NCBI GenBank assembly: GCA_030041195.1
Contig: JASHOI010000784.1
Span: 1-17,996 of the forward strand
Source of the DNA: Streptosporangiaceae bacterium
Lineage (GTDB): Bacteria > Actinomycetota > Actinomycetes > Streptosporangiales > Streptosporangiaceae
DNA length: 17,996 bases
Direction of reading: 5' to 3'
Under the pieces are notes generated by a model, which had not been told where the DNA came from, searched no databases, and worked only from the letters and a program-made list of their open reading frames with translations. Below, one piece after another: positions 3,486 through 17,996 of the stretch. A program made the position numbers and the translations under genes. Numbering within the stretch: the first letter of the stretch is position 1; every line of letters begins with the position of its first letter.

Positions 3486-4433
3486 TCAGGGACCGGACGG
3501 CGGCGGGCCGGTCGCGGCGATCGTCGACCTTGGCGACAGGTCGGCGTAGGCGACCGCGACCCCGGCGGCGAGCTCGGCGTTGTCCGCGATCAGGCGCTCG
3601 TTGACCTCGACACTGCGGCCACCGCTGAGTTCCTCAACCGCGGCCAGCACCGCCGGCGTGACCGCCTGGCCGGTCAGGCCGGCCTGGCGCACCCGCTCCA
3701 CCGCCTCCGTGACCACGGCCTCAAGATCGAGGCCGTCCGCCGGCGGGCGGGCGAGGATAAGGCCGCCGGCGGGTACGAGCTGCCAGTGCGCCGCCGCTAT
3801 CTGGGCGGCCTCGGCCGCATCCGCCACCGTTGCCGAGACCGGCGGGCCGCCCGCGCCGCTGTAGAACATCGGCAGGGTCGGGGTCTGCCAGCCGAGGACG
3901 GGTACGCCGAGCGTCTCCAGCAGCTCGGCGGTGGCGCTGACGTCCAGGATCGACTTGGCGCCCGAGCAGACGACGACTGCCGGGGTCCGCGCGAGCTGCG
4001 GCAGGTCGGCAGAGATGTCCAGGGTGTCGGCGAAGCCGCGGTGCACGCCGCCGGTGCCGCCGGTGCCGACGAACCGGATGCCAACCGTGCGCGAGACGGC
4101 CAGCGTGCCGCCGACGGTCGTCGACCCCAGCGCGCCCTGGACGACGCACGCGGCAATGTCGCGCGCGCCCAGCTTGCGGGCGGCCGGGCCGGCATCGGCG
4201 AAGCGCTCGAGCTCGGCGGCGTCAAGCCCGACCCGCACGACGCCGTCCAGCACGCCAATCGTGGCCGGTGTCGCGCCAGCGGCCCGGACTCGGCGTTCCG
4301 ACTCCAGCGCGGCATCGAGCCCACGGCCGCCGGAGAATCCATGTGACACCAGCGTCGTCTCCAGGGCAACGACCGGGCGGCCGGCCCTCAGCGCTTCGGC
4401 GATCTCACCTGTCAGCTGCGGCACAAGCGTCAC
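3486..4433 (-). CDS. psuG: Pseudouridine-5'-phosphate glycosidase
   Basis: The enzyme reversibly cleaves pseudouridine 5'-phosphate to uracil and ribose 5-phosphate. Starting at GTG 4433 the product has 315 residues, the normal family length (about 300-315). Conserved blocks include [56 protein letters not shown] and a C-terminal [17 protein letters not shown]25, K87 and K160 correspond to the catalytic E31, K93 and K166 of the E. coli enzyme, with a constant offset of six. The open frame continues upstream to an ATG at 4676, but that extension runs antisense-free over another gene and shows no PsuG homology. GTG 4424 is a possible alternative start. The partner kinase psuK is not in the window. 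The gene begins 16 nt after the 69-aa gene ends, so read-through from the large operon is possible. It fits the cdd/deoA pyrimidine-catabolism neighbourhood. Confidence 0.93.
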
Positions 4434-4449: not shown

Positions 4450-4659
4450 TTATCCACATAGCATCTGTTCGATATCGCCGCCGCCGAGGCTGGCGAGAAG
4501 AGCCTCGAGTTCGTCTGGGCGGAAGGCATCCCCGAGAATCGTAAGTCCGCTATCGGTGATGGATATTCGCAGCCGCATGAGGCGCCCGTCGGGATAGCGG
4601 TCATACTCGCTTGCATCAATAAGGTCGGGAAGATCCGGCACGTATCGCGGAGTAACCAT
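4450..4659 (-). CDS. 69-aa protein ending in Leu-Cys-Gly, last gene of the ternary-system operon
   Basis: The ATG lies 3 nt after the stop of the radical SAM gene and the frame ends at TAA, giving 69 residues. It starts MVTPRYVPDLPDLIDASEYD, has a central beta-like stretch RLMRLRISITDSGLTILGDAF, an acidic helix DELEALLASL, and ends GGGDIEQMLCG. The only cysteine is residue 68, next to a terminal glycine. The alternation of hydrophobic residues suggests a small folded domain rather than an unstructured leader. No known family can be named with confidence. Its fixed place after the radical SAM gene suggests it may be a substrate or partner of that enzyme, or a small adaptor of the ATPase system; both are inference. 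Its DNA is visibly less GC-rich than the rest of the operon. It lies in a different frame from the upstream extension of psuG, which is rejected in its favour. Confidence 0.8.
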   Translation of the reverse strand: MVTPRYVPDLPDLIDASEYDRYPDGRLMRLRISITDSGLTILGDAFRPDELEALLASLGGGDIEQMLCG

Positions 4660-4662
4660 CTT

Positions 4663-5682
4663 CTACCATCGCCCATCTATCGCTTGCGTGCAACCTGGAC
4701 AGGCGCCGTCGACCAGTCGGTTGGTCTCGGTGCGCCACAACCCACGGACGATCGCCGCCTCGCCGCAGGAGGGGCAATACGTGGTACGGCCGGCCTGACC
4801 GAGAGCGCGCTCGACGTATACGAACCGCAGCCCAGCCGCTCTGCCGATCTCGGAGGCGCGAGCGAGAGCGGCCGGGGTTGTCGGATCCCGGTCGGCCATC
4901 CGGAACGTTGGCGTGAACCGGAGCAGATGCCACGGGATCTCGCTACCGATATTGGCCAAGGTCCGTGCCATCCATGTCAGGTCGCTTTCGTTGTCGTTGA
5001 CGGCAGGGATCAGCGGCGTGCTCACCTCGAGCCAGACCCCGCGATCGTGCAGAGCGCGGATCGTGTCGATGACCGGCTTGAGCGCGGCGCCGGTCAGGCG
5101 GCGATGCTGCTCCTCGGTCGCAGCCTTCAGATCGATGTTCGCCGCGGCCAGCGCCGGAGCGACCGCCTGCACCGCCTCCTGGGTGAGGAAGCCGTTGCTT
5201 TTCCAAACGACGCTGAGTCCTTTGGCCCGCGCCAACTCCAGGGTTAGTTCGCACGCCAGAGCGGGTTCGGTGTACGACAGCGCGACTATGCCGTCGATCT
5301 GGGCCGCTCGGTGCACGACATCCATCACCTCCGTGTATCCACCCGACCAAGGTGACCCGGCCGGCCTGCCAAACTGCGAGAGGCGGTAGTTGATGCAGTA
5401 GGAGCAAAAAAATGTGCAACCAGGCGCAGCGATCGTGAGGGCCGTTGTCCCGGGCCGGAAATGATAGAGCGGTTTTCGCTCGATCGGGTCTTCGTGGCTT
5501 ACCGCGATGCCAGAAAAAGTGGCCGTCTCCAGTACGTCGCCCCGCCGACGGCGCACGCGGCAGAGCCCGACCTGTCCGTCTGATAGCCGGCACCGGTGCG
5601 GGCACAGCGTGCACTCGATCCGCTCGCGGTCGTTTCGGTAAAGGATGGCAGGTACCCATTGCTCTGGCGCGCGCTCGTTCAT
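4663..5682 (-). CDS. amrS: AmmeMemoRadiSam-type radical SAM enzyme
   Basis: The protein has 339 residues. The N-terminus has four cysteines in CTLCPHRCRL...GQVGLCRVR (C24, C27, C31, C41), typical of the AmmeMemoRadiSam radical SAM family. The [4Fe-4S]/SAM motif is CTFFCSYC (C89, C93, C96), a canonical CxxxCxxC. The C-terminus has a zinc-ribbon-like CPSC...CPGC set (C303, C306, C328, C331). Family members use a 5'-deoxyadenosyl radical, but their substrate is unknown; they are usually found with AMMECR1 and Memo proteins, neither of which is seen here. Its ATG overlaps the stop of the WD40-vWA gene (ATGA), so it is translated with the ternary system. The 69-aa gene follows after 3 nt. The family call is strong. 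The symbol is the generic family name, and a role in the system is inferred from the overlap alone. Confidence 0.88.
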   Translation of the reverse strand: MNERAPEQWVPAILYRNDRERIECTLCPHRCRLSDGQVGLCRVRRRRGDVLETATFSGIAVSHEDPIERKPLYHFRPGTTALTIAAPGCTFFCSYCINYRLSQFGRPAGSPWSGGYTEVMDVVHRAAQIDGIVALSYTEPALACELTLELARAKGLSVVWKSNGFLTQEAVQAVAPALAAANIDLKAATEEQHRRLTGAALKPVIDTIRALHDRGVWLEVSTPLIPAVNDNESDLTWMARTLANIGSEIPWHLLRFTPTFRMADRDPTTPAALARASEIGRAAGLRFVYVERALGQAGRTTYCPSCGEAAIVRGLWRTETNRLVDGACPGCTQAIDGRW

Positions 5683-8600
5683 CTACGCACCGGGTCCCGG
5701 ACGGCGGGGGCCAGCAGCCGCAGCACGGCCTTCAACACCTCGGCGGCGCTGGGCTTGGGCGGCAAGTGGAGATGGTACGGATTCATGAACGGCCGCCGTG
5801 GCGGGTCGCCTGGCGCATGGGTGGTCAGCACTCGCACCGAGGCGCGCGCCACGACGTCCTGATCCGACACGAGGTGGTGCTGCGTCAGCAAAACGGTCGT
5901 GGCCTGTCGGCGGTACGTCGCCGTATTCAGTGCCGCGGTCAGTGACGTGGATGCCGGCTCCAGCGTGCGACCGCACCAGACCTCGATTAGGTCGGCGGGC
6001 CGGATAAGCGGCACGGCGCGGTCCGGGGCGTCCAGCCGTATCAGATGGGCGTCCTTATGCGTAATCCACAAGTTCGTTGCGATGGTGTGCGCGACGAGTC
6101 GCAGGACCATCTCCACCGGGCCGAAGGTGGGGGGAGTCGTGTCGAGCACGATCGTCACCGGTGCCAGCGGCGTTTCGATGCCGCCGTCGCGCAGGCGGTA
6201 GAGCAGCTGATCCTGAGCGTATCTAGCCGCGAACAGCCTTAGCGGCAAGGCCAGCTCGGTGTGCACGAGATTCGGCAGAGTACCCCTGCGCACGAGTCCG
6301 TTGACCCCGGCTGCCTGCGCGGAAGTGCTGGCGCGACCACTAGCGTCCCGCTCCAGCTGCCGGGTGACGTCCAGCAGCAGCGTTCGTGGCTCGACGTCGA
6401 GCGACAGCAACTGCGGGGCATGGTGCCTGAGCCGTACCGGCAGGATGGGGTCGGCCGCGACGGCGTCGGGGCCCAGCACCGTGAGGAGGGCTATGACCTG
6501 GTCGTTGATCCGGTTGGCCGCTGCGCGAAGCAGGTCGAGCGGCACGGCCTCCGGCAAGCCGTCGCCGGGGGGCGAGTCGAGCGCTGCCAGCAGCGCGCGG
6601 TGCAGCGCCGCTTTCGGCGCGGGTGGCGCTGTGTAGCGGTCGTCGGCCGGCAGGTCCTCGGCGAGCAGGGCAGCAAAGCCCACCCGGGCGCCATGCGGCC
6701 AGGCAAGGCCGCGCAGTCGGCTCACGCCGGGGTGTTCGGCTAGCGTCGCGATGGCCCCCGTGCGTGGGGCCTCTCCCCCGGTGATCGCGACGAGATCGGC
6801 CAGGAGAGCTAGCGGCGGGTCGAGATTCGAGCCCGCCAGCGCGATCAGGTCGGCGGCCCACCGCGCGTCGGAGCGGCTCCCGGCCGGCCGCGCAGGCGTC
6901 GGCGCCGACCCGCCGCCCCGCGTGTGCATGGTCAGCAGGCTCAGCTGACCGCGTTCACCACCGACCGCGATCTGGAATCGATGCGCGTCCAGCCACCGCA
7001 CGGCCACAGCCTGGCTCGTCGGCACCTCCCTGCGCAGCAGCAACCTGGCCTCGGCCAGGTTCCAGATGCGCACGTCGCCGATCCTGTGAGCACCCGTGAC
7101 GGTTACCGACTCCCCCGCGTGATTGACGGCTGAGTCCACAGACCATAGGGGACCAGCCTCGTCGTCCAGCAAGCCCACTTGCTGGCCGGTAACCGGGTCC
7201 GAGAGCCGCAGCGAACCATCGATTCCGCAGCTGGCCAGGACAGCGGATCCATCTTGCCGTCCCTCGAATCTCAGCCCGTACACCGAATCGGTGTGGCTCC
7301 TCAGAGTGCGGAGCTGACGACCGGTCGCCGGGTCCCATAGCTTGACCGTATTGTCGACGCTGCCGCTGGCCATCAGGTCTGATCCGTCGGGAAGCCGAGT
7401 GAAGGCAAGCGGCCAGACCCCGTTGGTGTGCCCGGACAGGGTGCGGAGGTGATCGCCCGTCACCGGATCCCACAGCCGGATGTTCGAGTCGCCGCAACCG
7501 GCCGCGAGCACGACCGACCCATCGGCGAGCGCGCCGAACCTGACCTCGTGGGCGCCTCCCTCGTGCCCGGTCAGCCTGTGCAGCGCCGTCCCGGTGACCG
7601 GATCCCACACCCGGACCGTGCGGTCGTTACTGGCGCTGGCGAGCAGCGTGGTTCCGTCCGGCAAGGTGCCGAAGGCGACGCCCCAGATCCTCGCGGTGTG
7701 GCCCTCCAGGGAGCGCAGGTGATCACCGCTATCCGGGTCCCAGATCTCGACCGTGGTGTTATCTCCGCCGCAAGCCAGCAGATCCGAGCCATCGCGCAGC
7801 CGGCCAAAGGCGATTACGTTGATGTCCAGAGCCGGACCGGGCAGGGTACGGACGCTCACCTCCTCGACCTCCGTTACGGTGCCGTCTGTCTGCGGCCCGT
7901 TACCCTGACCGGTCGCGCTCATCCGCGCGGACCAGAGCAGGCCGGAGTCGCCTCCAGCGGCCAGATACACAGAGCCGTCCGGCAGTGAGCCCAGCGCCGC
8001 GCTCCAGAGCGTCCCGGGCTGTTTCTCGGAGGCGAACAGGCAGTCATGGGTGAGCGCGTCCCAGACCCAGACACGGTCGTCGCAAGCGGCGACGAGGACG
8101 GTCGTCCCGCTGGGCAACACCGCGAACGCGACGGAGCCGACGGAACCGTTACCGGTGTCGACGGAACCGTTGCCGGTGTCGAGGGTCCGAAGCAGCCGAC
8201 CGCTCGCAGGATCCCACAGTCGGACTGGCCCTTCGCCAGATCCGACGCTGGCCAAGACCGTGGTTGCATCATCGAGGCGCGTGAACGCTAGCCCATATAC
8301 GACGCCTGGGTGGCCGGTCAAAATACGCAGGTGCTCGCCAGTCAGCGGATCCCACAGCCGGATGGCCGAATCCGCGCCAGCACTGGCCAGGATCGAGGAG
8401 CCGTCCGGCAGCACGCCGAACGCGACCGCGTACAGCGCCTCGCTGTGGCCGACGAGTGTGCGGATGTGACGCTGGGTATAGGGGTCCCAGATCCGCACGG
8501 TGTGGTCGTACGCCGCGCTGGCCAGCAGGGCCGATCCGCCGGGCAAGGCGGCGAACGCTACCGCCCAGGGATTTTCGGTGTGCCCGGTCAGCACGGCCAG

Positions 8601-10043
8601 CTCTTCGCCGCTGACTAGATCCCAGATCCGCACCGTGTGATCAGAACTATCCGTGGCCAGCAGGACCACACCGCCGGGCGTGACGTGGGTGGCGAACGCC
8701 GCAATCGTCCCGGCGCTGCCCTGCAGGCGCTTCAGTGACCTCCCGGATACAGGATCCCGGATCTCTACCCTGCCGTCACCCGCGCTCACCAGCGCTGTGG
8801 TTCCGTCGGGCAGATCGACGAAGGCCACGCCGTAGACGGTGTCGTGGTGTCCCGCGATCAACCGGGGTTCGGCATCGAGCCGCATGCTCGGCGCGCTGAA
8901 CGCGGACACCGACATTTCCGCTGCGGGCGCTTCGATCCCAAGATCCCATATTCGGATCCGGGTATCTCGGCTTCCGGTGGCCAGCGCCAGCCGTCCATCC
9001 CCCGTCCCGGCGAACGCGACGGACACGGCCCGGTCAGAACCGTTGAGCACGCTCAGGCAGGAGCGGTCGCTGAGCCGCCATAGCCTGGCAGCCCCGTCGG
9101 TAGAGACGCTGGCGAGGATGACCGTACCGTCAGGCAGGGTGGTGAACGCGCATCCATACAGGGCTGGCTCCTGCCCGGTCAGCATATCGAGCAGCTGACC
9201 GGTCTCTGGATCCCACAGGCCGATCCGACCCCCGTCGCAGCAGCCGGCGAGGACGGCTGAGCCGTCGATCGCGACCGCTGCAGCCAGCCCGACAACATTA
9301 CGTGAGCCGGAGGGATCCTCGAGGGACCGCAGCAGATCGCCAGTGACTGGATCCCAGATCCGGGCGCCGCCTTCCCCCTGGTCGCCGCCGCTTGCGAGGA
9401 CGACCGTGCCGCCGGGCAGCGTGACGAAGGTGACGGAGAAGATCTTGCTGGCGTGTCCCTCGAGGGTGCGGACCGGACGGCCGGTCATCGGATCCCAGAG
9501 CCTAACCGTCTCGTCGTAACCGCCGCTCGCGAGCAGCACCGTCCCGTCCGGAAGCTTGCCAAACGCGACGGTGCGGGCGTAAGCGGTGTGGCCGCTGAGC
9601 GTCTGGCGGAGTTCTCCTGTCTCGAGATCCCAGAGCCTGACGGCGCCGTCTGAGTTACCGCTGGCCAGAACCGTCGCGCCGTTGGGCAGAATGCCGACGG
9701 CGACCGCGGCAACCCTGCTCTCACCATGCTGAAGAACGCGGATGCAGACACCGCTGGCTACGTCCCATACCCGCACGGTATGGTCGCTGCTCGCGCTGAC
9801 GAGCAACTGAGCGCCGTCTCGGGCCTGGGCGGCCTGGATCGACCAGACAGCGTCGGTGTGGCCGCTAAGGACGGCGGGCTCAGCGGCGGCCCGGACTGTC
9901 CATCGACCTGGCTTCGGCAAGTGCCTGTCGGCTCGGCGGGCAGGCGCCGCATCGGTAGTGCCCGGGACGCCGACGCGTCCCACGGTGCGGGCGTGGTTGA
10001 CCGCCCACCGGCGGATGGCCTCGTTGGTGTCGTCAGCGCTCAT
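5679..10043 (-). CDS. Giant WD40 beta-propeller / von Willebrand A protein, putative sensor-scaffold of the ternary system
   Basis: The product has 1454 residues. A basic N-terminus (1-55) leads into 21 WD40-type blades of the form GHT..V..VAF..LPDGT.LLAS...D.TVRLWDP.TG. Blades 1-7 span about 58-367, blades 8-14 about 397-705 and blades 15-21 about 734-1040, separated by two linkers of about 28 residues; this predicts three seven-bladed propellers. Residues 1050-1290 are mainly helical and include GLVRRGTLPNLVHTELALPL and QDQLLYRLRDGG, a segment I associate with vWA proteins of ternary systems. A vWA-like domain follows at about 1296-1425 (VTIVLDTTPPTFGPVEMVL ... TTVLLTQHHL). The metal site is degenerate: D1301 and T1303 remain, but P1305 and Q1388 replace the usual Ser and Asp. 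No signal peptide or membrane segment is seen, so it is cytosolic. ATG 10043 is chosen because the frame upstream runs through the end of the preceding gene. The propellers probably bind a ligand or target while the vWA part contacts the MoxR ATPase (inference). Confidence 0.9.
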   Translation of the reverse strand: MSADDTNEAIRRWAVNHARTVGRVGVPGTTDAAPARRADRHLPKPGRWTVRAAAEPAVLSGHTDAVWSIQAAQARDGAQLLVSASSDHTVRVWDVASGVCIRVLQHGESRVAAVAVGILPNGATVLASGNSDGAVRLWDLETGELRQTLSGHTAYARTVAFGKLPDGTVLLASGGYDETVRLWDPMTGRPVRTLEGHASKIFSVTFVTLPGGTVVLASGGDQGEGGARIWDPVTGDLLRSLEDPSGSRNVVGLAAAVAIDGSAVLAGCCDGGRIGLWDPETGQLLDMLTGQEPALYGCAFTTLPDGTVILASVSTDGAARLWRLSDRSCLSVLNGSDRAVSVAFAGTGDGRLALATGSRDTRIRIWDLGIEAPAAEMSVSAFSAPSMRLDAEPRLIAGHHDTVYGVAFVDLPDGTTALVSAGDGRVEIRDPVSGRSLKRLQGSAGTIAAFATHVTPGGVVLLATDSSDHTVRIWDLVSGEELAVLTGHTENPWAVAFAALPGGSALLASAAYDHTVRIWDPYTQRHIRTLVGHSEALYAVAFGVLPDGSSILASAGADSAIRLWDPLTGEHLRILTGHPGVVYGLAFTRLDDATTVLASVGSGEGPVRLWDPASGRLLRTLDTGNGSVDTGNGSVGSVAFAVLPSGTTVLVAACDDRVWVWDALTHDCLFASEKQPGTLWSAALGSLPDGSVYLAAGGDSGLLWSARMSATGQGNGPQTDGTVTEVEEVSVRTLPGPALDINVIAFGRLRDGSDLLACGGDNTTVEIWDPDSGDHLRSLEGHTARIWGVAFGTLPDGTTLLASASNDRTVRVWDPVTGTALHRLTGHEGGAHEVRFGALADGSVVLAAGCGDSNIRLWDPVTGDHLRTLSGHTNGVWPLAFTRLPDGSDLMASGSVDNTVKLWDPATGRQLRTLRSHTDSVYGLRFEGRQDGSAVLASCGIDGSLRLSDPVTGQQVGLLDDEAGPLWSVDSAVNHAGESVTVTGAHRIGDVRIWNLAEARLLLRREVPTSQAVAVRWLDAHRFQIAVGGERGQLSLLTMHTRGGGSAPTPARPAGSRSDARWAADLIALAGSNLDPPLALLADLVAITGGEAPRTGAIATLAEHPGVSRLRGLAWPHGARVGFAALLAEDLPADDRYTAPPAPKAALHRALLAALDSPPGDGLPEAVPLDLLRAAANRINDQVIALLTVLGPDAVAADPILPVRLRHHAPQLLSLDVEPRTLLLDVTRQLERDASGRASTSAQAAGVNGLVRRGTLPNLVHTELALPLRLFAARYAQDQLLYRLRDGGIETPLAPVTIVLDTTPPTFGPVEMVLRLVAHTIATNLWITHKDAHLIRLDAPDRAVPLIRPADLIEVWCGRTLEPASTSLTAALNTATYRRQATTVLLTQHHLVSDQDVVARASVRVLTTHAPGDPPRRPFMNPYHLHLPPKPSAAEVLKAVLRLLAPAVRDPVRR
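6924..9872 (-). repeat. 21 tandem WD40 blade units (three sets of seven)
   Basis: Each unit is about 40-46 codons and repeats TLxGHTxxVxxVAFxxLPDG followed by TxLLASxxxDxTVRLWDP. Many units are closely alike (for example those ending near residues 173-183, 511-520, 807-815 and 897-904), while others have lost the GH or WD residues (blades 5, 6, 14, 20 and 21). The insertions after blades 7 and 14 mark the propeller boundaries. Confidence 0.88.
8140..8181. repeat. 21-bp tandem duplication inside blade 13
   Basis: Two adjacent 21-bp units, 8140-8160 and 8161-8181, differ at one base. On the minus strand they encode DTGNGSV twice in a row. The insertion lengthens the loop that leads into blade 13 of the WD40 protein by seven residues without breaking the frame, and looks like a recent slippage event. 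Confidence 0.9.
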
Positions 10044-10053
10044 GGTGGCATGC

Positions 10054-10761
10054 TCATGGGGCGAGTCGGCCCGCGAAGACCTGGCACGGCGGAAGCTCCC
10101 GCGTGCGGTAGCGCAGCAGTACACCGCCCTTGATCGCCGCGTGCACGGTGACGGTGGCCCACACCTCCGCCCGCAGCGGACCGCGTACCACCATGGCCAG
10201 CCGGTGCGCGCCGGCCAGTTGCACGGCCGAGGTGCGCCGGAACCGCCATTCCGGATCGGACCGCAGCAGGTGGACTGCCTCGAGAAACACCTCGTCGACA
10301 GTCCGGGAGGTGGTGTGCTGCCACTCACCGGCGCTCGCCTCGACGTTCGAGATGGTCAGCTTCGGTCCCAGCCGCCACGTCGTGCCGGTTTGCACCGGAT
10401 GCGCGGCGCGCTCGGGCGCCATGGACCAGGCGATCGGCGTCTCCCCGGCCTCGGTCGTGAACAGGCGCAGCCCCAGCGCGGCCGACTCCAGCGGCGGATC
10501 GCCCGGCGCGGACTCGAAAGTCACCGAGGCCTGCATGACCGAGAACGTGGACCTGGCCGCCTCTGCGGTCACAAATAGCTGCAGCTGCGGATCACCGGCA
10601 ACGTAATCCGCGGTCACCGGAACGGCGACCGGCCCGCCGAGCAGCACTCGTGCGGCAAGCCCAGTGGCCGGTTCCGGCCCAGGCCGGCCGCGCACTGGCG
10701 TCTGGTCAGCGACGAGCTCCAGGGCGCGTTGCGGCAGCGGTGGCGTCTCAATCTCGATCAT
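10054..10761 (-). CDS. 235-aa beta-rich protein of the ternary-system operon, function unknown
   Basis: The start ATG lies 2 nt after the stop of the preceding gene and is supported by a strong Shine-Dalgarno sequence GGGAGG six nt upstream. The protein has no signal peptide or membrane segment. The first two thirds are rich in alternating strands (LQLFVTAEAARSTFSVMQASVTFES, given here as two overlapping strands at about residues 60-85, then a segment ending TTWRLGPKLTISNVEAS), suggesting one or two immunoglobulin-like or jelly-roll modules. A helix follows (TVDEVFLEAVHLLRS), and a C-terminal beta unit GPLRAEVWATVTVHAAIKGG ends the protein. No catalytic motif is evident. By position it is one of the unassigned 'X' components that accompany the FtsH/MoxR/vWA core, probably structural or adaptor. 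The next gene starts 10 nt beyond its stop. Confidence 0.78.
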   Translation of the reverse strand: MIEIETPPLPQRALELVADQTPVRGRPGPEPATGLAARVLLGGPVAVPVTADYVAGDPQLQLFVTAEAARSTFSVMQASVTFESAPGDPPLESAALGLRLFTTEAGETPIAWSMAPERAAHPVQTGTTWRLGPKLTISNVEASAGEWQHTTSRTVDEVFLEAVHLLRSDPEWRFRRTSAVQLAGAHRLAMVVRGPLRAEVWATVTVHAAIKGGVLLRYRTRELPPCQVFAGRLAP

Positions 10762-10763
10762 GG

Positions 10764-12359
10764 TTAACCTCCCGGACGGCGGTCCAGGGCTTCCCGCGCG
10801 GCCCGTTCGAATAGATGTGCGGCGCGCAGCGGCTCGTTATGGCGCCGGTGTAGTTCCGCGGCGCCTGCCAGGTTTCCGGCCAGCTCGGCGGCCAGAGCCT
10901 CGTCACGCCATGAGCGGGCAGCCGTCTGGGCCGAGCGCCGCACGGCGACCGGCGGCGCGGCGCCATCCGCCTCGTCGAGCGCGCGCAGCGCAGCGGCGGA
11001 GCCTGCCGGAAGGCGGAGGTCGGCCGGTGGTGGGTCGCCCACCCACAGCTTCCAGACCGGACGCCGCGCGTCGAGGCTGAATCGCAGCCCACCGCGATCG
11101 GTAAGGACGACGGCGTGCTGGGCGTCGGGCTCATACATCGCCTGCCGGGCCGATGGCGGCAGGCGCGGGCTCAGCCGCCTGCCCAGCGGGACGTAGAGCG
11201 GGCCCGGGCCCACGCAGGCGAGCGGCTCACCGACCGGAAGCTGTTCGAGCACTCCGCCCGCGGCCAGCACCAGGTGCCTGTCCTTCCCGAGCACGACGAC
11301 GGCGATCTCGGCGAGCGGATGGTGCTCCAGCAGCAGTGCCAGGTTGGCTAGGTCAGCGTCGTCAAGGAGGACGGCGTCCACGCGCTGGCCGGGCAGGCGG
11401 GCCGGGACGAGGCGCACCGCAGACTCGGTCACGACGTGATGGCTGCCGAGCGGGCGCTGGTCGGCGAGCGGCAGATCGTCGTCGAGACGGACCAGCCCGC
11501 TGCTGTCGAGCCAGTCGCCCATGGCATCAAGGCGCCAGCAGCCGAACGCCGCATCAGCGAGCACCCAGGTGCCGCCGTCAACGAGCATCGCAAGCTGCTC
11601 GTCGGCCAGCGGGGATGCCTTCCCGTGCTGCACGAGCAGACGGCCGTCGCCAGCGGGGCGAAAGACCGCGGCCTGCGGGTACCGGGCGGCCGCCCCGAGG
11701 AACGCGGTCGGGATCGTGCGGGCCGCTGCGCGCAGGCTCAGCTCAATGAGCGTTGTCTGGTCTCCTGCGGACGATCCGGCGAACAGCGGTTCCAGGCGAA
11801 CGGCCCGATATGAGACGTCAAGCCGGAGATCGAGCGCGCGCCGCACCACGGCGGTCATGGCGAGGCCAGGCAGCAGCACCGCCGCGGCGGACAGCGGATT
11901 CGGCCGCGTGGTGTGCAGCCCGCTCTGCCGGACGAGATCCAGCAGGCTCACCGGCGTCAGCGTGCCGGGATCGATGTCCTCGGCCCCGCGCCGCTGCGGG
12001 GCAGCGCCGAAGCCGCGGTCGCGGACCAGCCAGCCATCGACGCGCACGTAAGCGGCGCCGTTGGCACTGTCCACGATCGAGCGGCCGAGGTCCAGGTCCA
12101 GCGCCGCCAGCACCCACCACGAGCCCGATCCGGTCCGGAACTGCGCGTCCTGGGCGCGGCCTGCCGCGATCAGCGCGCCGACACAGGACAGTGCGGCGGT
12201 GGCGGTGCGAAACCGCCCGGCGACCGGCACCGGCGGGGCGGGCGCCGGATGGGCGCCGGTCGGTCGTGATGCCGCTGGCTCTGGCCGGCCGGGTGGCGCT
12301 GGTTCGAGTCGGGCGATCTGGCCGGTGGGCGGCCGGGTCCCGCCGGAGCGTCCGGTCAT
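10764..12359 (-). CDS. 531-aa multidomain 'X' protein of the ternary-system operon
   Basis: The ATG at 12359 overlaps the stop of the upstream gene (ATGA); the open frame extends further to 12449, but that part lies inside the neighbour and is Arg-rich nonsense. Residues 1-50 are a Pro/Ala/Arg-rich disordered segment. A middle domain begins around GSWWVLAALDLDLGRSIVDS and YVRVDGWLVRD. A second beta-rich part contains GTWVLADAAFGCWRLDAMGD. A third has VGPGPLYVPLGRRLSPRLPP, then HAVVLTDRGGLRFSL and PVWKLWVGD. I recall this last pattern from unassigned components of MoxR/vWA ternary systems, but I cannot give a Pfam number. The C-terminus (about 487-525) has three 13-residue helical repeats like those of the preceding gene. 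No enzyme motif is seen. A scaffold or adaptor role is the most likely reading. Confidence 0.82.
   Translation of the reverse strand: MTGRSGGTRPPTGQIARLEPAPPGRPEPAASRPTGAHPAPAPPVPVAGRFRTATAALSCVGALIAAGRAQDAQFRTGSGSWWVLAALDLDLGRSIVDSANGAAYVRVDGWLVRDRGFGAAPQRRGAEDIDPGTLTPVSLLDLVRQSGLHTTRPNPLSAAAVLLPGLAMTAVVRRALDLRLDVSYRAVRLEPLFAGSSAGDQTTLIELSLRAAARTIPTAFLGAAARYPQAAVFRPAGDGRLLVQHGKASPLADEQLAMLVDGGTWVLADAAFGCWRLDAMGDWLDSSGLVRLDDDLPLADQRPLGSHHVVTESAVRLVPARLPGQRVDAVLLDDADLANLALLLEHHPLAEIAVVVLGKDRHLVLAAGGVLEQLPVGEPLACVGPGPLYVPLGRRLSPRLPPSARQAMYEPDAQHAVVLTDRGGLRFSLDARRPVWKLWVGDPPPADLRLPAGSAAALRALDEADGAAPPVAVRRSAQTAARSWRDEALAAELAGNLAGAAELHRRHNEPLRAAHLFERAAREALDRRPGG
10768..10773 (-). promoter_or_regulatory. 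Shine-Dalgarno sequence for the 235-aa gene
   Basis: The minus strand reads GGGAGG six nt before the ATG at 10761. It overlaps the last codons of the upstream gene and fixes the start. It is one of only two near-perfect ribosome sites in an operon that otherwise relies on stop/start overlaps. Confidence 0.75.
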
Positions 12360-12949
12360 GACTGGACCTCTGCGCCGGCGTCGGCGGTCTGGGAGGGCGG
12401 CGGAATGACGATCGCGATGCCGAACCTGTCCTGCGTCCACGCGGCCCACTCCTTGTCCGCGTTCGGGAACCGGGCGCGTACGGCCGCAGACCAGATCAGC
12501 GCGGCCTGGTCGTAGCGCTGAATCGCCTCGGCTACCGCGATAGACCAGTGCAGCAGGCGCTGATCCGGCGCGCCGATCCGGCCGGCGAGTGCCTCCTGAA
12601 CGTCGCCGAGCACCGGCACGATGAGCTCGTGGTCAGCGCCCTCAGCGGCGTCGCACCGGGCGAGCACCAGGCGCCGGACCAGCTCGCCCGGTGCTGTGCC
12701 CGCGCTGGCCAGCACAGCCCGCGCGGCGGCCGCGTCGCCGGCGTAATGGACCAGCGTCCAGCCAGCCTCGTCGATGTTGCCGGCCGCCTGGTAGGCCTCC
12801 GCGGCATCGCGGTGCATGCCATGGTGCGCATACAGGTCGGCGGCTCGCCGGTGCATGCGCGCATGGCGGTAGCAGCGGGCCGCCTCCAGATGCGCGCCGG
12901 CCTGCTCGTAGCAGCTCGCGGCCTGTGACCACAGGGAGAGTTCAGTCAC
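12356..12949 (-). CDS. Short helical-repeat (TPR-like) protein of the ternary-system operon
   Basis: The 197-residue product starts at a GTG that overlaps the previous stop by 8 nt. Residues 10-74 consist of five 13-residue units whose alanines fall at 10, 23, 36, 49 and 62 and whose aromatic residues fall at 14, 27, 40 and 53 (for example AARCYRHARMHRR, AADLYAHHGMHRD, AAEAYQAAGNIDE). These are short helices of alpha-solenoid type with a period much shorter than the 34 residues of standard TPRs. The second half is helical too (LLHWSIAVAEAIQRYDQAAL) and ends in a KEWAAWTQDRFGIAIVIPPP tail. There is no catalytic motif, so protein-protein contact is the likely role. The neighbouring 531-aa protein ends with the same unit, which suggests they share a binding surface or a common origin. 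Confidence 0.82.
   Translation of the reverse strand: MTELSLWSQAASCYEQAGAHLEAARCYRHARMHRRAADLYAHHGMHRDAAEAYQAAGNIDEAGWTLVHYAGDAAAARAVLASAGTAPGELVRRLVLARCDAAEGADHELIVPVLGDVQEALAGRIGAPDQRLLHWSIAVAEAIQRYDQAALIWSAAVRARFPNADKEWAAWTQDRFGIAIVIPPPSQTADAGAEVQS
12728..12922 (-). repeat. Five 39-bp (13-codon) helical repeats
   Basis: The coding repeats have consensus AAxxYxxxGxHxx and sit back to back without spacers. The fifth unit (AGWTLVHYAGDAA) is diverged and lacks the conserved tyrosine spacing. The regular 39-bp register is direct evidence of tandem duplication. Confidence 0.7.
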
Positions 12950-13205
12950 GGAGCCTTGTCTCGGTGCTCGGTCTCGCCGGATCAGGAGCCGCTTGCTCGG
13001 GCTCGGCGCTGACCCTGGTGGTCGAGTTGGGTGCGACCTCGGTCACGGTGGGGTGGGGATCCACGACGCGCGCCACCTCGAGCGACGCGGCGTCGTGCCG
13101 TTCATCGTGGTCGAAGTCGGGTGGCCCGACGCGGGCGTCGTCCACCTCGAAGACCTCGACCTCGCCAGTGTCGGAGTTGAACCGGAAGCGCACGCGGACA
13201 CGCAT
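12942..13205 (-). CDS. 87-aa small 'X' protein of the ternary-system operon
   Basis: The protein starts MRVRVRFRFNSDTGEVEVFE, a predicted beta hairpin, followed by an acidic-histidine stretch DFDHDERHDAASLEVARVV and DPHPTVTEV, and a Pro/Ala/Glu low-complexity tail (AEPEQAAPDPARPSTETRLRD). The ATG at 13205 is preferred over the ATG at 13253 because it falls 10 nt after the upstream stop, while the longer form would run back into the coiled-coil gene and adds an unlikely Arg/Ser-rich leader. The hairpin plus 'HDxxSLEVARVV' layout matches my memory of a small component found beside FtsH-like/MoxR/vWA operons; the exact family number cannot be given. Its stop overlaps the GTG of the next gene by 8 nt. 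The role is unknown and probably adaptor. Confidence 0.8.
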   Translation of the reverse strand: MRVRVRFRFNSDTGEVEVFEVDDARVGPPDFDHDERHDAASLEVARVVDPHPTVTEVAPNSTTRVSAEPEQAAPDPARPSTETRLRD

Positions 13206-13215
13206 CGTCCCGCCC

Positions 13216-13989
13216 CTATCGCTGCATCTCGAACTCGATCTCCACCACGCCATCTCGCTCGGTGCAGGAGAAGTTCTCCGCGCCGCGGGACTGTGCGTAT
13301 GCGGTGATCGCGTCGCGGTACGCCATCGCCAGCGCGCGGTGGAAGACGTTGCGGCCCTCGATACCGAGCGCGGTCAGCCGCTGCACGGCCAGGCCGCGGA
13401 GTTCCTCGGCCCGTTGCGCGGTGCGCCGGGCCCACTCGGCCTCCGCCTGTGCCGCCGCGCTCGCCTCGACCTCGACCGCGCGCAGTGCCTCGGCCTGCTC
13501 CCGCGCCTGCGCGAGGACGCGCTGCCGCTCGAGCTCGAGATTGGACTGCGCGTCGGCATGTGCGGCCCGCCGAGCGTCATCCTCGGTGATCCCGCCGTAG
13601 CCGTCGTCGTAGTACGTTCCGGTGCCGCGCACCTCGATGTGCTCGGCCACCTCGCCGTGCGCCGTTTCGACCGCCGCGACCTCGACGTCGACCCGTTCCG
13701 CCGCCTGGGCCACGATCTCCAGCTCCTGGGTGTCGGCGTGGTACGCCAGATACCCGCCGTCGAGCGTGTACCGGAACGAGTCGCCGTCCTGCTCCCAGCC
13801 TTCGGTTCCGGCCAGCGCGCGCTCGAGCATGACCAGAACAGGCGCGCCGATCGTGGCATCTAGCGGCTCCAGCAACCTGGCCTCGGCCATGGCATCGCCG
13901 CTGCGGGTCGCGACCCTCCTGATTTCGTGTTCCCACGCCTCCGCGAGCTGGGCGCTGGCAGTGACGTGGATACGGCGCGGATTACACAT
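13216..13989 (-). CDS. Coiled-coil 'X' protein (MCNPRR N-terminus) of the ternary-system operon
   Basis: The product has 257 residues. The ATG at 13989 is chosen over the ATG at 14001 because a perfect GGAGGG lies 4 nt upstream, and because MCNPRRIHVTASAQLAEAWE reads as a clean start; it overlaps the MoxR stop by 8 nt. Residues about 20-135 form a mixed alpha/beta domain (WEHEIRRVA, SFRYTLDGGYLAYHADTQEL, EHIEVRGTGTYYDDGYGG). Residues about 137-205 are a long Ala/Glu/Arg heptad-rich coiled coil (NLELERQRVLAQAREQAEAL, AEWARRTAQRAEELRGLAVQ). A short C-terminal domain ends CTERDGVVEIEFEMQR. The coiled coil suggests oligomerisation or docking between the ATPases. I associate the MCNPRR start with a component of FtsH-like ternary systems. 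No enzymatic residues are recognised. Confidence 0.85.
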   Translation of the reverse strand: MCNPRRIHVTASAQLAEAWEHEIRRVATRSGDAMAEARLLEPLDATIGAPVLVMLERALAGTEGWEQDGDSFRYTLDGGYLAYHADTQELEIVAQAAERVDVEVAAVETAHGEVAEHIEVRGTGTYYDDGYGGITEDDARRAAHADAQSNLELERQRVLAQAREQAEALRAVEVEASAAAQAEAEWARRTAQRAEELRGLAVQRLTALGIEGRNVFHRALAMAYRDAITAYAQSRGAENFSCTERDGVVEIEFEMQR

Positions 13990-15175
13990 CGAACCCTCCA
14001 TCCTCGCTGTATCGGTCTCGCATGATCATGATCACCTCGGTCTGTGAGCGCTGGATCTCCCGCAGCGCCTCGACCGCCTGCGGGTGTGTGGACCTGACCT
14101 CGGCCACCAGCCTCCCCAGTTGTCCCAGCAGCTCACGACACTCCTCGCGAGAATCAAGCAGCGGAATCCGGTTCGCCAGCTCGCGGTGGCTGTACCGGAT
14201 CTCGTCGAGGTCCCGCGCCGTACGGCTGCGCCGGGCGAGCGGCACCCCGTGCGACTCGACCACGTCACGGATCGACGCCGCGTCGTACGGGCTCGTCCAC
14301 AGGTAGGTCAGGACCGACAGGTCTTCCACCTCCGCCTGGCCCCGGCCCGCGAGCAGCGCGCTCGCCGCGATCGCCTTCTGTGCCTTGACCGCGCGCCGGT
14401 CCGAGAACGGCACCGCTGCCTCGCGGAACGATACGAGGATCTTGGACAGGGCGCCCCGCACGCCCGCGAGGTTGATATCGGCGACCGCCGCTTGCAGAGC
14501 CTTCAGATCCCGGACCGGAAACACACCGTCGCCTTGCTGCTGGCGGGTTAGCGTCCCGTCGCGGATCAGCCGCTGCTCCGCCGCCCAGCCGAGCTGCAGC
14601 ACGTCGTCGATCGATTCGTCCGGCACGTAGTCAAGCTCGCAACGGAACAGGAAGCGGTCGCAGAACGCCAGCAGCACCGGATCGTCGGCCGGCATCTCGT
14701 TGGCCGCCCCGAGCAGAGAGATAAGGGGAACCGGCTCGATTCGGGAGCCGTTGTGGAACGTCCGTTCGTTGATCAACGTCAGCAGTGAGTTGAGGATCGC
14801 GCTGCTGCCATGGAACACCTCGTCGAGGAACGCAAACTCGGCGGTCGGCAGCATCCCGTCCGTGTTGACCCGGTAGACCGCGTCCTCCTGGAAGCTGTGC
14901 ACGTCCATCACGCCGAATAGCTCCGCAGGCTCGGTGAACTTCGACAGCAGGTAGCTGAAGTACCTCGCCTGCAGCAGCGAGCTGTACCGCTCGAGCAGCG
15001 CCGTCTTGGCCGTGCCGGGAGGGCCGAGGAGCAGAACGTGCTCGCGGCAGAGCGTGGCCAGGGCGAGCACGGTGATGGCCTCATCCCGCCCGACGAACTG
15101 TTCGCCGAGATCGGTGAGATGGCCGGCGAACGTCCGGGCGGTCAGCCGCAGGTCGGGAGCGAGCGTCGTGGTCAC
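13982..15175 (-). CDS. MoxR-family AAA+ ATPase of the ternary system
   Basis: The 397-residue protein starts at a GTG that overlaps the stop of the FtsH-like gene (GTGA). Walker A is GPPGTAKT (51-58), Walker B is FAFLDEVF (114-121), sensor 1 is N159 in GAANEMP, and the arginine finger is R174 in FCDRFLFR; a sensor-2-like SDRRAVKAQK follows near 258-267. The GTAKT form of Walker A and the LLTLINERTFHNG segment are typical of MoxR/RavA ATPases. A helical C-terminal extension (about 300-397) ends in acidic residues. MoxR ATPases commonly work as hexameric remodelling chaperones with a vWA partner, here most likely the WD40-vWA giant encoded five genes downstream. All catalytic residues are present, so it should be active. 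Confidence 0.95.
   Translation of the reverse strand: MTTTLAPDLRLTARTFAGHLTDLGEQFVGRDEAITVLALATLCREHVLLLGPPGTAKTALLERYSSLLQARYFSYLLSKFTEPAELFGVMDVHSFQEDAVYRVNTDGMLPTAEFAFLDEVFHGSSAILNSLLTLINERTFHNGSRIEPVPLISLLGAANEMPADDPVLLAFCDRFLFRCELDYVPDESIDDVLQLGWAAEQRLIRDGTLTRQQQGDGVFPVRDLKALQAAVADINLAGVRGALSKILVSFREAAVPFSDRRAVKAQKAIAASALLAGRGQAEVEDLSVLTYLWTSPYDAASIRDVVESHGVPLARRSRTARDLDEIRYSHRELANRIPLLDSREECRELLGQLGRLVAEVRSTHPQAVEALREIQRSQTEVIMIMRDRYSEDGGFDV
13994..13999 (-). promoter_or_regulatory. Shine-Dalgarno sequence that fixes the coiled-coil gene start
   Basis: The minus strand reads GGAGGG, then TTCG, then ATG at 13989. The other in-frame ATG (14001) lies upstream of this site and has no comparable motif, so the shorter product is favoured. 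Confidence 0.8.
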
Positions 15176-17208
15176 TGCCCGGGTACCTCCTCGGCGGTCG
15201 GCTCGGCTTCTTCGGCTGACCCGCCATCCCCGGGCTGCCCGGTCCGCCGCGGGGTCAGCACGACCATCTCGGTACCGGTCCGCCCGGCCCCGGTGCGAGG
15301 CCGCTGGCCGCGGTCCCGGTCCACGTCGCGCTCCTGGGTGGCGCGGCGCAACTGGCCTACCAGCTCCCCCAGTGCGCGCGCGTCGGCCGGACGCGGCGGG
15401 TGCCCGACGAGATTGTTGGCGCGGGCATCGCGGAAGATCGAGCGGATCTCGTCGCCGTTCATCCGGTTGGTGGCCACGGCAATCCGGTCCAGCAGTTCCT
15501 CGCTCACCTCGATGTCGAAGTGCCGGGCGTGCACCCGGGCGATCGCTTTGCGGGCGCTCAGGTCGGGAAGGTCGATCCGGATCGCCTTGAACCGGCTCGG
15601 CCGCAACAGCGCCTCGTCGATAATGTCGAGCCGGTTGGTGGTGCCGATGATCAGCACCGGGACCTCCGGCCGGAACCCGTCCATCTCGGTGAGCAGCTGC
15701 GCCACGATCGCGTTCCCGGCTCGGCTGCCGCCATCCTCGCGCCCGCTGCGCCGGGCCGCGATCGAGTCGAACTCGTCAAAAACGATCACCGCCGGAGCGT
15801 TGCGGCGCGCCTCGGCGAAGATCTCGCGCACCTTCCGCTCGCTCTCCCCGACGTACATGTCGGTGACCTCGGGGCCGGAAACCACCAGGATGGTCGCGTC
15901 AAAGGCGGTGGCGACTGCCTTCGCGAAGAGCGTCTTCCCGGTCCCGGGCGGCCCGTGGAAGATGAACCCGCGCGGCACCAGCTCGTGGCGCAGCTTTTCG
16001 GGCAGGGAGTCCGCGCGGGCGAGCAGGTCCAGCGCACGCCGGAGTTCCGCGCGCACGTCGGGGTAGCCGCCGATCTGGTCGAAGGAGACGTTGGGGAGCT
16101 CGAACGAGTTCGACGTGGTCGCCTTGAACAGCCGCAACTCGGCGACCAGGCGGCCAAACGTCGCCCCCGAGTGGCTGTACTGGTGAAAGGCGAAGCTGAC
16201 CGCGTGGCGCAGCCGCGCCGCGTTCATGCCCGCGATGTGCTTGTACAGCGCTGTCGCGTCGCCCTCGCCGAACGCGAACAGCTTTGCCTCTTCCGCGGTC
16301 ACTAGCGCTCGCCCGATCGGCACCCGCACTCCGTCGCTGGTGCGCACCTCGCGCGGCAGGATGTCGATGGCTATCCGGACCGCGAACCGGTTCGCCAGCA
16401 CCTCCGGGATGGACAGCGACGGGTCAACGAACGCCAGCAGGACCGCGCCGCTGCGCTCGTACAGTACGTCGGTCAGCTCCCTGGCCTCGCTGGTGAGCGC
16501 TGCGTCGCTGCCCCCCGCGAGCAGGTCGAGGTGCGGAACGACAATGAGGTCGGTGGCGGGGTTGGCGGTGGTTACCGCCGCCTGGAGCCCGGCGAGCATC
16601 CCCTGTCGCCGCCCTGCCGAGAAGCCGGGCAGGTCACGGCCGCCCCCATCCGGTCCGGGCTCGATCACCCGAACGGTGCGTCCGGAACGCGCCGAGATCG
16701 CGGCGGCGAGGTGCTCGACGAGCAGCTTCTCACAGCGGACCAGAACGGACATGCCGTCATGACCCGGTTCCAGGTAGGCGGCAGCCCGCCTGATCTCCTC
16801 GTCGTGAGCGATCAGCACGGCAGTCCTGGTATCGATCGACACTGGGTGGTCGAGGCCCGGTTTCGCGCCGCCGCCTCCCGGGCCTTGCGCCGTCGCGGCG
16901 TCGTCGGCGGCCCGCTCGCCGCTCCCGGTCGCCAGGCCGGAGGCCGGCGCGCGGCCGGCGAACGCCATCCCGGGCGGCCAGTACAGCGGCACATCCCCGC
17001 TCGGCTCGGCGACCTCGATCCGCAGCCGCGCCACGCGCCGCTCCAGCAGTTCCCCGTCGATCGGGGTCAGCGAGAACGCGGGCAGCTCACTGAGCAGCTT
17101 GCCCAGGGTCAGGTCGGGCTCGTCCACGTCGGCAAGCTGGTACCGGCTCTCGAACACGGCGCGGTCGGCCAGCGGCACCAGCGTCAGCCGGGTTCTCTGC
17201 GCGCTCAT
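15172..17208 (-). CDS. Tandem AAA ATPase, FtsH/Cdc48-like, with a degenerate first module and no protease
   Basis: The product has 678 residues. The C-terminal AAA module is intact: FDQIGGYPDVRAELRRAL (376-393), Walker A GPPGTGKT (419-426), pore-loop-like MYVGESERKVREIF (451-464), Walker B VIVFDEFDS (474-482), sensor 1 GTTNR with N525, and arginine fingers in LLRPSRF (R536, R539). Upstream, residues about 150-300 look like a decayed AAA module: TDLIVVPHLDLLA in the Walker-B position, AVLLAFVDPSLS, and IPEVLANRFAVRIAI, with no Walker A. No N-terminal membrane segments and no HExxH zinc-protease domain exist, so this is not a true FtsH protease. A Pro/Gly/Arg-rich tail (610-678) ends the protein. 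It begins with an ATGA overlap of the preceding gene. It probably unfolds or remodels proteins alongside MoxR; the substrate is unknown. Confidence 0.93.
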   Translation of the reverse strand: MSAQRTRLTLVPLADRAVFESRYQLADVDEPDLTLGKLLSELPAFSLTPIDGELLERRVARLRIEVAEPSGDVPLYWPPGMAFAGRAPASGLATGSGERAADDAATAQGPGGGGAKPGLDHPVSIDTRTAVLIAHDEEIRRAAAYLEPGHDGMSVLVRCEKLLVEHLAAAISARSGRTVRVIEPGPDGGGRDLPGFSAGRRQGMLAGLQAAVTTANPATDLIVVPHLDLLAGGSDAALTSEARELTDVLYERSGAVLLAFVDPSLSIPEVLANRFAVRIAIDILPREVRTSDGVRVPIGRALVTAEEAKLFAFGEGDATALYKHIAGMNAARLRHAVSFAFHQYSHSGATFGRLVAELRLFKATTSNSFELPNVSFDQIGGYPDVRAELRRALDLLARADSLPEKLRHELVPRGFIFHGPPGTGKTLFAKAVATAFDATILVVSGPEVTDMYVGESERKVREIFAEARRNAPAVIVFDEFDSIAARRSGREDGGSRAGNAIVAQLLTEMDGFRPEVPVLIIGTTNRLDIIDEALLRPSRFKAIRIDLPDLSARKAIARVHARHFDIEVSEELLDRIAVATNRMNGDEIRSIFRDARANNLVGHPPRPADARALGELVGQLRRATQERDVDRDRGQRPRTGAGRTGTEMVVLTPRRTGQPGDGGSAEEAEPTAEEVPGQ

Positions 17209-17996
17209 ACGGCCGCCGCCTGCAGCAGCCGGAACCGGTGTACGAGCCGGACCGCCGGAAGGTAGTCCTCGGGGCGGAGCAGGATCCGGTCCGCGATCGA
17301 CGGAGCGCCACGCGCCGCCTCGGACTGGCCAGCTGCGATCCGCCGGCCGAGCGTGTTCCGCGCCTGCTCGTCCCGGTACAGGCGGGCCAGCGGAACCCAG
17401 TACCGGATCGTGGCGATGGGCAGTTCGGGCTGTGCTCCCGGTCCGGCAAGCTGATGCTCGGCCCAGCGCAGCCGGTCATCCCAGGCCGTGCCGTGCCACA
17501 GCCTCGCCGCGAGGTAGACGTCGAGCGCGCAGGCGGTGTGCTGCAACCGCATCATCTCGAGCAGCTCCGCTCGCCAGTTCAGGATCTCGGCACTCGCCGA
17601 CGGTGCGGCCAGCGCCGGGACCGCGATGCCCGCGCCCCGTGGCCTGGCGAGCAGCCGTGCCGCGACAGTCCGCGCCGCAGGCGCCGTCCCTGAGGCGGGC
17701 CGGTACAGCACACCGGTGAGCGGCGACGCGCGCAGCAGCGTGTCCGCTGTCACGTCATCCAGGCCGATGCCCGGGCTGATCATCAGGGGCGCCACGACTG
17801 CGTGCCGAGCCACGGAGTCGACCCAGGCACCGCTGGAGCCGAGCCGTATGGCGGGGACCGCATCGATGATCGCCGCCGCGGCGTTCCTCTCGGCACGCCC
17901 GCCAATCGCGGCGGCCAGCAGCAGGCTGCCCGGCCCGACCGGCCCTGGATCGGCCAGGGGCGGACGGCCGGCGCCGAGCCTGGCGGCCGCCAGCGC
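17205..17996 (-). CDS. Helical Ala-rich protein of the ternary-system operon (5' end outside window)
   Basis: The frame is open from the right edge to a TGA at 17205 and gives 263 residues without a stop; a GTG at 17813 could be read as a start, but the frame continues upstream with similar composition (ALAAARLGAGRPPLADPGPV, SLLLAAAIGGRAERNAAAAI), so a longer protein is more likely. The sequence is mainly helical: AEILNWRAELLEMMRLQHTA, CALDVYLAARLWHG, DDRLRWAEHQLAG, IRYWVPLARLYRDEQARNTL, and a C-terminal LPAVRLVHRFRLLQAAAV. No catalytic motif, signal peptide or transmembrane span is clear. It overlaps the tandem-AAA gene by an ATGA, so it belongs to the same operon and is probably another unassigned system component. 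Confidence 0.8.
   Translation of the reverse strand, partial: ALAAARLGAGRPPLADPGPVGPGSLLLAAAIGGRAERNAAAAIIDAVPAIRLGSSGAWVDSVARHAVVAPLMISPGIGLDDVTADTLLRASPLTGVLYRPASGTAPAARTVAARLLARPRGAGIAVPALAAPSASAEILNWRAELLEMMRLQHTACALDVYLAARLWHGTAWDDRLRWAEHQLAGPGAQPELPIATIRYWVPLARLYRDEQARNTLGRRIAAGQSEAARGAPSIADRILLRPEDYLPAVRLVHRFRLLQAAAV

Follow-up and report, generated by a model that had tools for sequence, protein, structure and literature searches.

Gene content and relatives of an FtsH/MoxR/vWA ternary operon from a Streptosporangiaceae bacterium, and its U235 protein, a candidate partner of CHAT proteases

An eleven-gene operon of the FtsH ternary class

We analyzed a stretch of 17,996 nucleotides (nt) from a Streptosporangiaceae bacterium (assembly GCA_030041195.1, contig JASHOI010000784.1; hereafter the window), whose minus strand carries, from position 17996 down to 4450, eleven genes without internal stops (Table 1). 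An original prediction, made from the sequence alone, had read these genes as a complete-looking FtsH-like/MoxR/vWA ternary conflict operon, and their number, common strand and tight packing are confirmed, with spacings of -8 to +10 nt once starts are corrected by homology (open reading frames (ORFs) were called mechanically by script, and some ORF extents are overlong). The class identity stands as well: because Pfam families named for FtsH ternary systems match in the window (fvmX1, fvmX2, fvmX3, fvmX7, fvmRadSAM-pep and bpMoxR) and the gene order is shared by most close loci, we regard the assignment to this class, taken by itself, as close to certain. FtsH ternary systems were defined computationally in 2020 by Kaur et al. 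(PMC7159879), and the operon accordingly belongs to a class already known from computation; one of its components, a protein of 235 amino acids (aa) that we call U235, appears to be undescribed. Its role in immunity is a prediction.

The four X proteins (X1, X2, X3 and X7) match families of the ternary systems and not unrelated ones, which reduces the "at least six" unassigned small or scaffold proteins of the original prediction to two that lack a family after Pfam naming, the 197-aa TPR-like protein and U235. A gene pair that the prediction had missed, encoding a radical S-adenosylmethionine (SAM) enzyme and its associated peptide, was found with Pfam and NCBIfam.

Table 1. Genes of the window operon, in order of transcription (positions in the window).
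Gene product	Position	Strand	Evidence and remarks
fvmX1 protein	17205..17996	-	PF19998 E 3.9e-54; match from profile position 31; N-terminus cut by window edge
FtsH/Cdc48-like AAA+ ATPase, one P-loop, no M41 peptidase	15172..17208	-	PF00004 E 9.6e-40
MoxR AAA+ ATPase	13982..15175	-	PF20030 bpMoxR E 1.1e-66; P-loop GPPGTAKT
fvmX2 protein	13216..13989	-	PF20000 E 6.4e-77; start by homology (MCNPR)
fvmX3 small protein	12942..13205	-	PF19999 E 5e-23; start by homology
TPR-like protein, 197 aa	12356..12949	-	present in 28/29 loci (window + 28 close); no family over cut-off
fvmX7 protein	10764..12359	-	PF20005 E 3.9e-52
U235, 235 aa, predicted beta-sandwich	10054..10761	-	no named family; recurrent CHAT protease neighbour
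WD40-vWA protein, 1454 aa	5679..10043	-	WD40 E 3.9e-82 (N-terminal part); divergent vWA = C-terminal ~370 aa
Radical SAM enzyme, AmmeMemoRadiSam type	4663..5682	-	TIGR04337 241.4 bits (cut-off 220); PF04055
Radical-SAM-associated peptide, 69 aa, ending MLCG	4450..4659	-	PF20007 fvmRadSAM-pep E 8.7e-29; alignment

Gene order is shared by most close loci

Scanning genomes with an alignment of 41 FtsH homologues gave 523 relatives, from which the best 80 loci were taken; these loci end at 10 kb flanks or at contig ends, so that absences are upper bounds. In the set of 29 formed by the window and its 28 close loci, whose hosts include Streptomyces, Frankia, Actinoplanes and Polyangium, FtsH is found in 29, X1, the TPR-like protein and X7 in 28 each, MoxR in 27, X2 in 26, X3 in 25, vWA in 24, the peptide in 22, radical SAM in 21 and U235 in 5. 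Where both genes of a pair were found, they are same-strand neighbours in 28/28 cases for X1-FtsH (27 of them at most 150 nt apart), 27/27 for FtsH-MoxR (25), 26/26 for MoxR-X2 (25), 25/25 for X2-X3 (23), 25/25 for X3-TPR (25) and 27/28 for TPR-X7 (25), an arrangement that is more than chance. The vWA and AAA genes, whose joint conservation the original prediction had called for, are indeed conserved together in most close loci; the departures are L020, where the FtsH-like gene stands alone, and in part L003, L008 and L019, where portions of the block are absent or rearranged. The system looks rare: in a survey that sampled 296 Actinomycetota genomes, fvmX1 exceeded its cut-off in only one, the centre genome itself (at most eight candidates were scored per genome, and hits are lower bounds). 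Identical copies of the peptide and of U235 are recorded on other contigs, the longest of 24,785 nt.

A relative of the TPR-like protein (L034:8606-9247) gives weak TPR matches. A profile grown from fvmX2 picks up, upon iteration, fvmX5-like proteins at other FtsH loci (L055:9417-9980 and similar ORFs in L041-L080; E 1e-14 to 1e-43), the likeness covering the first ~95 residues where looked at and the Pfam fvmX5 check applying to the L055 protein alone; on this basis X2 and X5 possibly belong to a single family. A likeness of X2 and X3 to DUF1257/DUF2997 (the Ycf35 neighbourhood) was considered and abandoned: in a test that covered PF06868 only, this family was found in 0 of 10 genomes, with one control (Synechococcus elongatus) positive.

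The ATPases and the WD40-vWA protein

The FtsH-like protein retains an intact second AAA domain (match at residues 416-542, P-loop GPPGTGKT at residue 419) and, in motif and Pfam searches of its sequence, displays no HExxH, no M41 match and no second P-loop, in agreement with its earlier description as "protease-less". It aligns with VCP-like chains over two matched stretches, the N-terminal part being judged from sequence only, and its residues 1-400 have 186 homologues. The best solved relatives are VCP/Cdc48 for the FtsH-like protein and, by sequence, RavA for MoxR. The P-loop of the window MoxR (GPPGTAKT) ends in T, whereas the text of PMC7159879 gives a GXXXTAK-type with S last for MoxR proteins of FtsH ternary systems. 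In the simple-type locus L055, the FtsH-like protein (L055:9977-12076) still has a Peptidase_M41 domain, unlike that of the window.

All WD40 matches of the WD40-vWA protein lie inside its first 1080 residues, which places the propeller at the N-terminus. For the C-terminal end, an alignment of nine vWA ends matches, by profile-profile comparison, an alignment of seven sequences (probability 94.6, E 6.7e-8, 118 columns) that includes one from L055 identified as an ivWA protein (PF19997 E 1.7e-32). In this group the first aspartate resembling that of a metal ion-dependent adhesion site is conserved and the later one does not appear in the alignment, in line with a remark on divergent vWA domains in PMC7159879. 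The idea that the WD40 repeats are near-identical, fast-diversifying sensors was discarded: the ten repeats found with one motif are on average 34% alike ungapped (maximum 60%), their DNA copies are 61-72% alike to the reference, and they bear no sign of recent turnover.

The operon appears to continue upstream of X1

The window ends within X1, roughly the first 30 residues of which are missing. Directly upstream of X1, the related locus L001 encodes a 256-aa protein, ThiF/E1, EAD1-UQ_con (with an E2 match slightly below cut-off) and fvmJAB_N; the 256-aa protein is a RING-like candidate by virtue of sub-threshold RING matches in two of its homologues. Since the window stops where these upstream genes of relatives begin, comparison of the sequences indicates that the operon is truncated and that its eleven genes are the distal part of a larger operon on this GC-rich contig; it is therefore not complete, as it had seemed at first sight. 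EAD1-CHAT-type genes give strong matches in 15 of the 28 close loci, and Pfam confirmed EAD1 together with CHAT in the proteins scanned, with CHAT slightly below cut-off in L004 and L133. The original prediction had seen no obvious killing domain in the operon and had left three places for an effector, namely one of the X proteins, a target of the ATPases or a gene past the right edge. The last of these now fits best, and among the proteins that it had counted as X, U235 turned out to be a recurrent CHAT companion.

By its gene content, the window operon is best assigned to the Ubl-bearing, elaborate type of FtsH ternary systems (Ubl, ubiquitin-like), its Ubl genes being known from relatives only. 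It shares with the systems of this type described in PMC7159879 the FtsH-like AAA, bpMoxR, propeller-vWA and fvmX proteins and the radical SAM enzyme with its peptide, and its relatives also carry E1, EAD1-E2, JAB and EAD1-CHAT, but it differs in being cut before the Ubl and effector genes and in carrying U235. We did not meet U235 in the sections of PMC7159879 that were consulted, and the source data of that paper may mention it. The beta-propeller ternary systems of the same paper share the bpMoxR family, a divergent vWA and a propeller; there, however, the propeller is described as C-terminal to vWA and FtsH as lacking, whereas in the window the propeller is N-terminal and FtsH is present, and assignment to that type was rejected.

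The gene complement also bears on whether the system is a conflict system at all. Like other MoxR-vWA pairs, the operon could encode a non-immune multiprotein assembly or quality-control machine, as would suit the kinship of its ATPases with RavA and VCP/Cdc48, the conservation rather than hypervariability of its core genes, and a PADLOC search that matched no system and returned for the window only IetA and TRIP13, both to AAA parts. Against this, EAD1, CHAT and the patchy distribution, with X1 above its cut-off in none of the 295 other Actinomycetota genomes sampled (few candidates being scored in each), fit a conflict system, and PMC7159879 (Table 1) shows the class to be enriched among multicellular organisms (63 of 79); we consider a non-immune function unlikely. 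A phage-borne origin was likewise set aside, at least 31 viral loci being matched, at best with 39% identity and all inside the generic AAA part.

U235 recurs beside CHAT proteases

U235 has no match in Pfam, NCBIfam or PADLOC; five of its relatives have none in NCBIfam, and 31 homologues compared with Pfam give one weak match (MLTR_LBD, E 0.055) and otherwise none. Searches over 26 handles, 394 genomes of one family and 394 of one class (the 394-genome searches scoring seven candidates per genome, so that copies are lower bounds) retrieved at least 18 copies located away from FtsH loci; 16 of these were examined, and two weak ones (G534 and G619) were left out. A CHAT match lies within 0.5 kb of U235 in 15 of these 16 copies (G699 being the exception), as compared with 0.03 copies of 16 expected to have CHAT within 1 kb under uniform placement, although several of these loci are close kin and the 15 cases are not independent events. 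The adjacency appears in a seed search, in Pfam matches of the scanned proteins and in a whole-genome search with PF12770, and in four genomes (G676, G547, G697 and G466) the neighbour of U235 is the single CHAT match. The association of U235 with CHAT is thus well supported and, because it so far exceeds chance expectation, U235 is probably a substrate or partner of a CHAT protease.

Two kinds of neighbour occur. At ten loci U235 adjoins a large CHAT protein (1096-1647 aa in the ORF calls), whose gene comes first in nine and is convergent in one; at five it adjoins a short CHAT protein, with U235 first in four, and EAD1 is confirmed in four of the five short proteins, the fifth (L132) being cut by the contig end. 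The presumed catalytic His and Cys of CHAT are present, by alignment, in all 13 short and all seven large proteins. All five relatives with U235 in their FtsH locus carry EAD1-CHAT in the cluster (L004, L011, L027, L005 via L144, and L001 via L145), that of L001/L145 being known by sequence search only; in the L005 genome, a further U235 lies at the FtsH locus, outside the L005 stretch. At L128:7914-12467, an EAD1-DEAD-helicase protein stands beside U235 and EAD1-CHAT, suggesting a three-gene module, and L133 and L137 have an additional EAD1-like ORF.

CHAT substrates are commonly encoded near the protease, cleavage having been demonstrated for Csx30 (PMC9729208), and genes for bacterial gasdermins lie in clusters with those of caspase-like proteases, which activate the gasdermins (PMC9079055). 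U235 resembles these neighbours in that its copies adjoin CHAT proteins with His and Cys kept, and differs in having no sequence similarity to a Pfam family or solved protein; its cleavage is a prediction. It is also possible, with odds somewhat short of even, that U235 partners CHAT as a sensor, inhibitor or chaperone rather than as a cleaved effector. Both gene orders occur, as expected for any obligate partner, and beta-sandwich folds often bind ligands, whereas the tested neighbours of CHAT or caspase-like proteases, as far as the two papers describe Csx30 and bacterial gasdermin, are cleaved.

The AlphaFold2 model of U235 (predicted local distance difference test score 78.4) resembles leukocidin-type pore formers, though hardly better than other beta-sandwiches, and a central stretch of the protein differs in length among homologues. 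No leukocidin family occurs among the Pfam matches of the 31 members at E<=1 (HMMER filters drop most matches above 0.1), and no PDB sequence of this kind was matched; a pore-forming activity was set aside as unproven. A more far-reaching proposal is that U235 represents a new family of executors activated by CHAT proteases, possibly pore formers of leukocidin fold. In actinobacteria it would occur as a stand-alone module of two or three genes, in which U235 is paired with either a large CHAT protein or a short EAD1-CHAT protein and at times accompanied by a further EAD1 protein, and some FtsH ternary operons would have taken up this module. We consider this improbable as it stands; if true, such a module would give FtsH ATPase systems a gasdermin-like output.

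The radical SAM enzyme and its Cys-Gly-ending peptide

The C-terminal Cys-Gly of the peptide is near-invariant. The sequence ends in Leu/Met-Cys-Gly in 32 of 34 database homologues and in all 25 locus ORFs (the two sets overlap), and also in L126 and L127; the two exceptions (P0149 and P0153) stop before the Cys-Gly and appear to be truncated or frameshifted. The window enzyme exceeds the TIGR04337 cut-off, as in AmmeMemoRadiSam systems, but is paired with this peptide, and no operon product matched a Memo or AMMECR1 family in Pfam. Its matches to glycyl-radical activases are all far below cut-offs, and because of these weak matches it is a reasonable guess that the terminal Gly or Cys of the peptide is the target of the enzyme.

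An alternative is that this pair is the real output of the operon, the enzyme modifying the C-terminal Cys-Gly and the 69-aa protein then acting as toxin or signal, with U235 as an accessory sensor or adaptor. Small loci of deltaproteobacterial type (ATPases, X2, X3, TPR, X7, vWA and peptide, with no X1 or CHAT match) would then display the ancestral design, and the peptide is indeed present in L032, L034 and L036, all without X1 and CHAT matches, the comparison covering X1 and CHAT rather than Ubl genes and several of the small loci being short contigs. Across the genomes of 41 of the 80 loci, an AmmeMemo-type radical SAM enzyme scores above 100 bits in all 28 with the peptide as compared with 6 of 13 without it (Fisher 7.6e-5), and in 19 of 21 loci the two ORFs share a strand and are at most 150 nt apart, besides the near-invariant peptide end. 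The 100-bit line was nonetheless set after seeing the scores and the Fisher test ignores kinship, 20 of the 28 peptide genomes exceed the radical SAM family cut-off, and at E<=0.001 the family also matches 8 of 14 control genomes. Moreover, the tie is not universal. In G019 and in five genomes labelled Thermodesulfobacteriota, Tharpella, Deltaproteobacteria or Proteobacteria (G036, G037, G038, G039 and G041), the radical SAM gene lies on another contig than the peptide, and in those five the neighbour of the peptide is a 369-406 aa protein with no Pfam match, radical SAM included, in the three scanned; conversely, a radical SAM enzyme of this type occurs in G035, G040 and G043, which lack the peptide. 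The strong conservation of the peptide is also unlike that of a diversifying toxin, and we regard it as doubtful that the peptide is the output.

Among the 369-406 aa proteins, those at L032:14722-15891, L034:813-1922 and L036:8466-9590, the three scanned with Pfam, are mutually homologous, as are those at L126:2702-3889 and L127:2984-4204. In the genome of L006 (G010, Acidobacteriota), the peptide/radical SAM pair occurs twice, once on contig C6 and once on C358.

A proposed mechanism

We favour a scheme that builds on the gene identities, their order and conservation, the missing genes found in relatives and the U235-CHAT association, and whose functional steps, immunity included, would be as follows. 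The WD40-vWA protein would sense or capture an invader-derived or damaged protein, and MoxR (with vWA) and the FtsH-like ATPase would remodel a large complex, for which X1, X2, X3, X7 and the TPR-like protein may provide the scaffold. The upstream Ubl ligase genes, seen in relatives only, would recruit EAD1-tagged effectors, and the EAD1-CHAT protease, also seen in relatives only, would thereby be switched on and act on U235, which would be its substrate or partner and, of the proteins of the window operon, the likeliest executor. The radical SAM enzyme would mature the small Cys-Gly-ending peptide, which may license or time the switch. For all steps jointly, we put the probability at about 0.55.

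Several observations weigh against this scheme. No experiment on any FtsH ternary system turned up among the papers listed by our literature searches. An independent link to phage defence is lacking, since viral contigs gave only generic AAA similarity and PADLOC has no entry for a system of this kind. The vWA end of the WD40-vWA protein has no direct Pfam match. The CHAT, Ubl, E1, E2 and JAB genes lie outside the window, and in the sequence covered 11 of the 28 close loci (Polyangium, Acidobacteriota and others) have no EAD1-CHAT match, with two more giving a weak one. Inside FtsH loci, U235 adjoins CHAT in one of five cases, the other four being ~11 to 20 kb apart, and U235 is evidently not required, since many FtsH loci with EAD1-CHAT have no U235 in the sequence covered.

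As far as the literature was searched, FtsH ternary systems are known by prediction only, and the U235-CHAT pair would offer a two-protein, bench-sized way into the output of the machine. The Cys-Gly end of the peptide would similarly give a defined point of attack for work on this radical SAM family, no substrate of which appeared among the papers listed.

Other genes of the window

The window contains no tRNA gene and no Rfam match at gathering scores. Some 16 nt downstream of the peptide gene, on the same strand, starts a gene for a PF04227 protein, presumably PsuG-like (3486-4433), into which transcription of the operon could possibly read through. Further along, at 1481-3219, a gene for a Sigma-70-family sigma factor (extracytoplasmic function-like) overlaps that of a 411-aa protein without a Pfam match.

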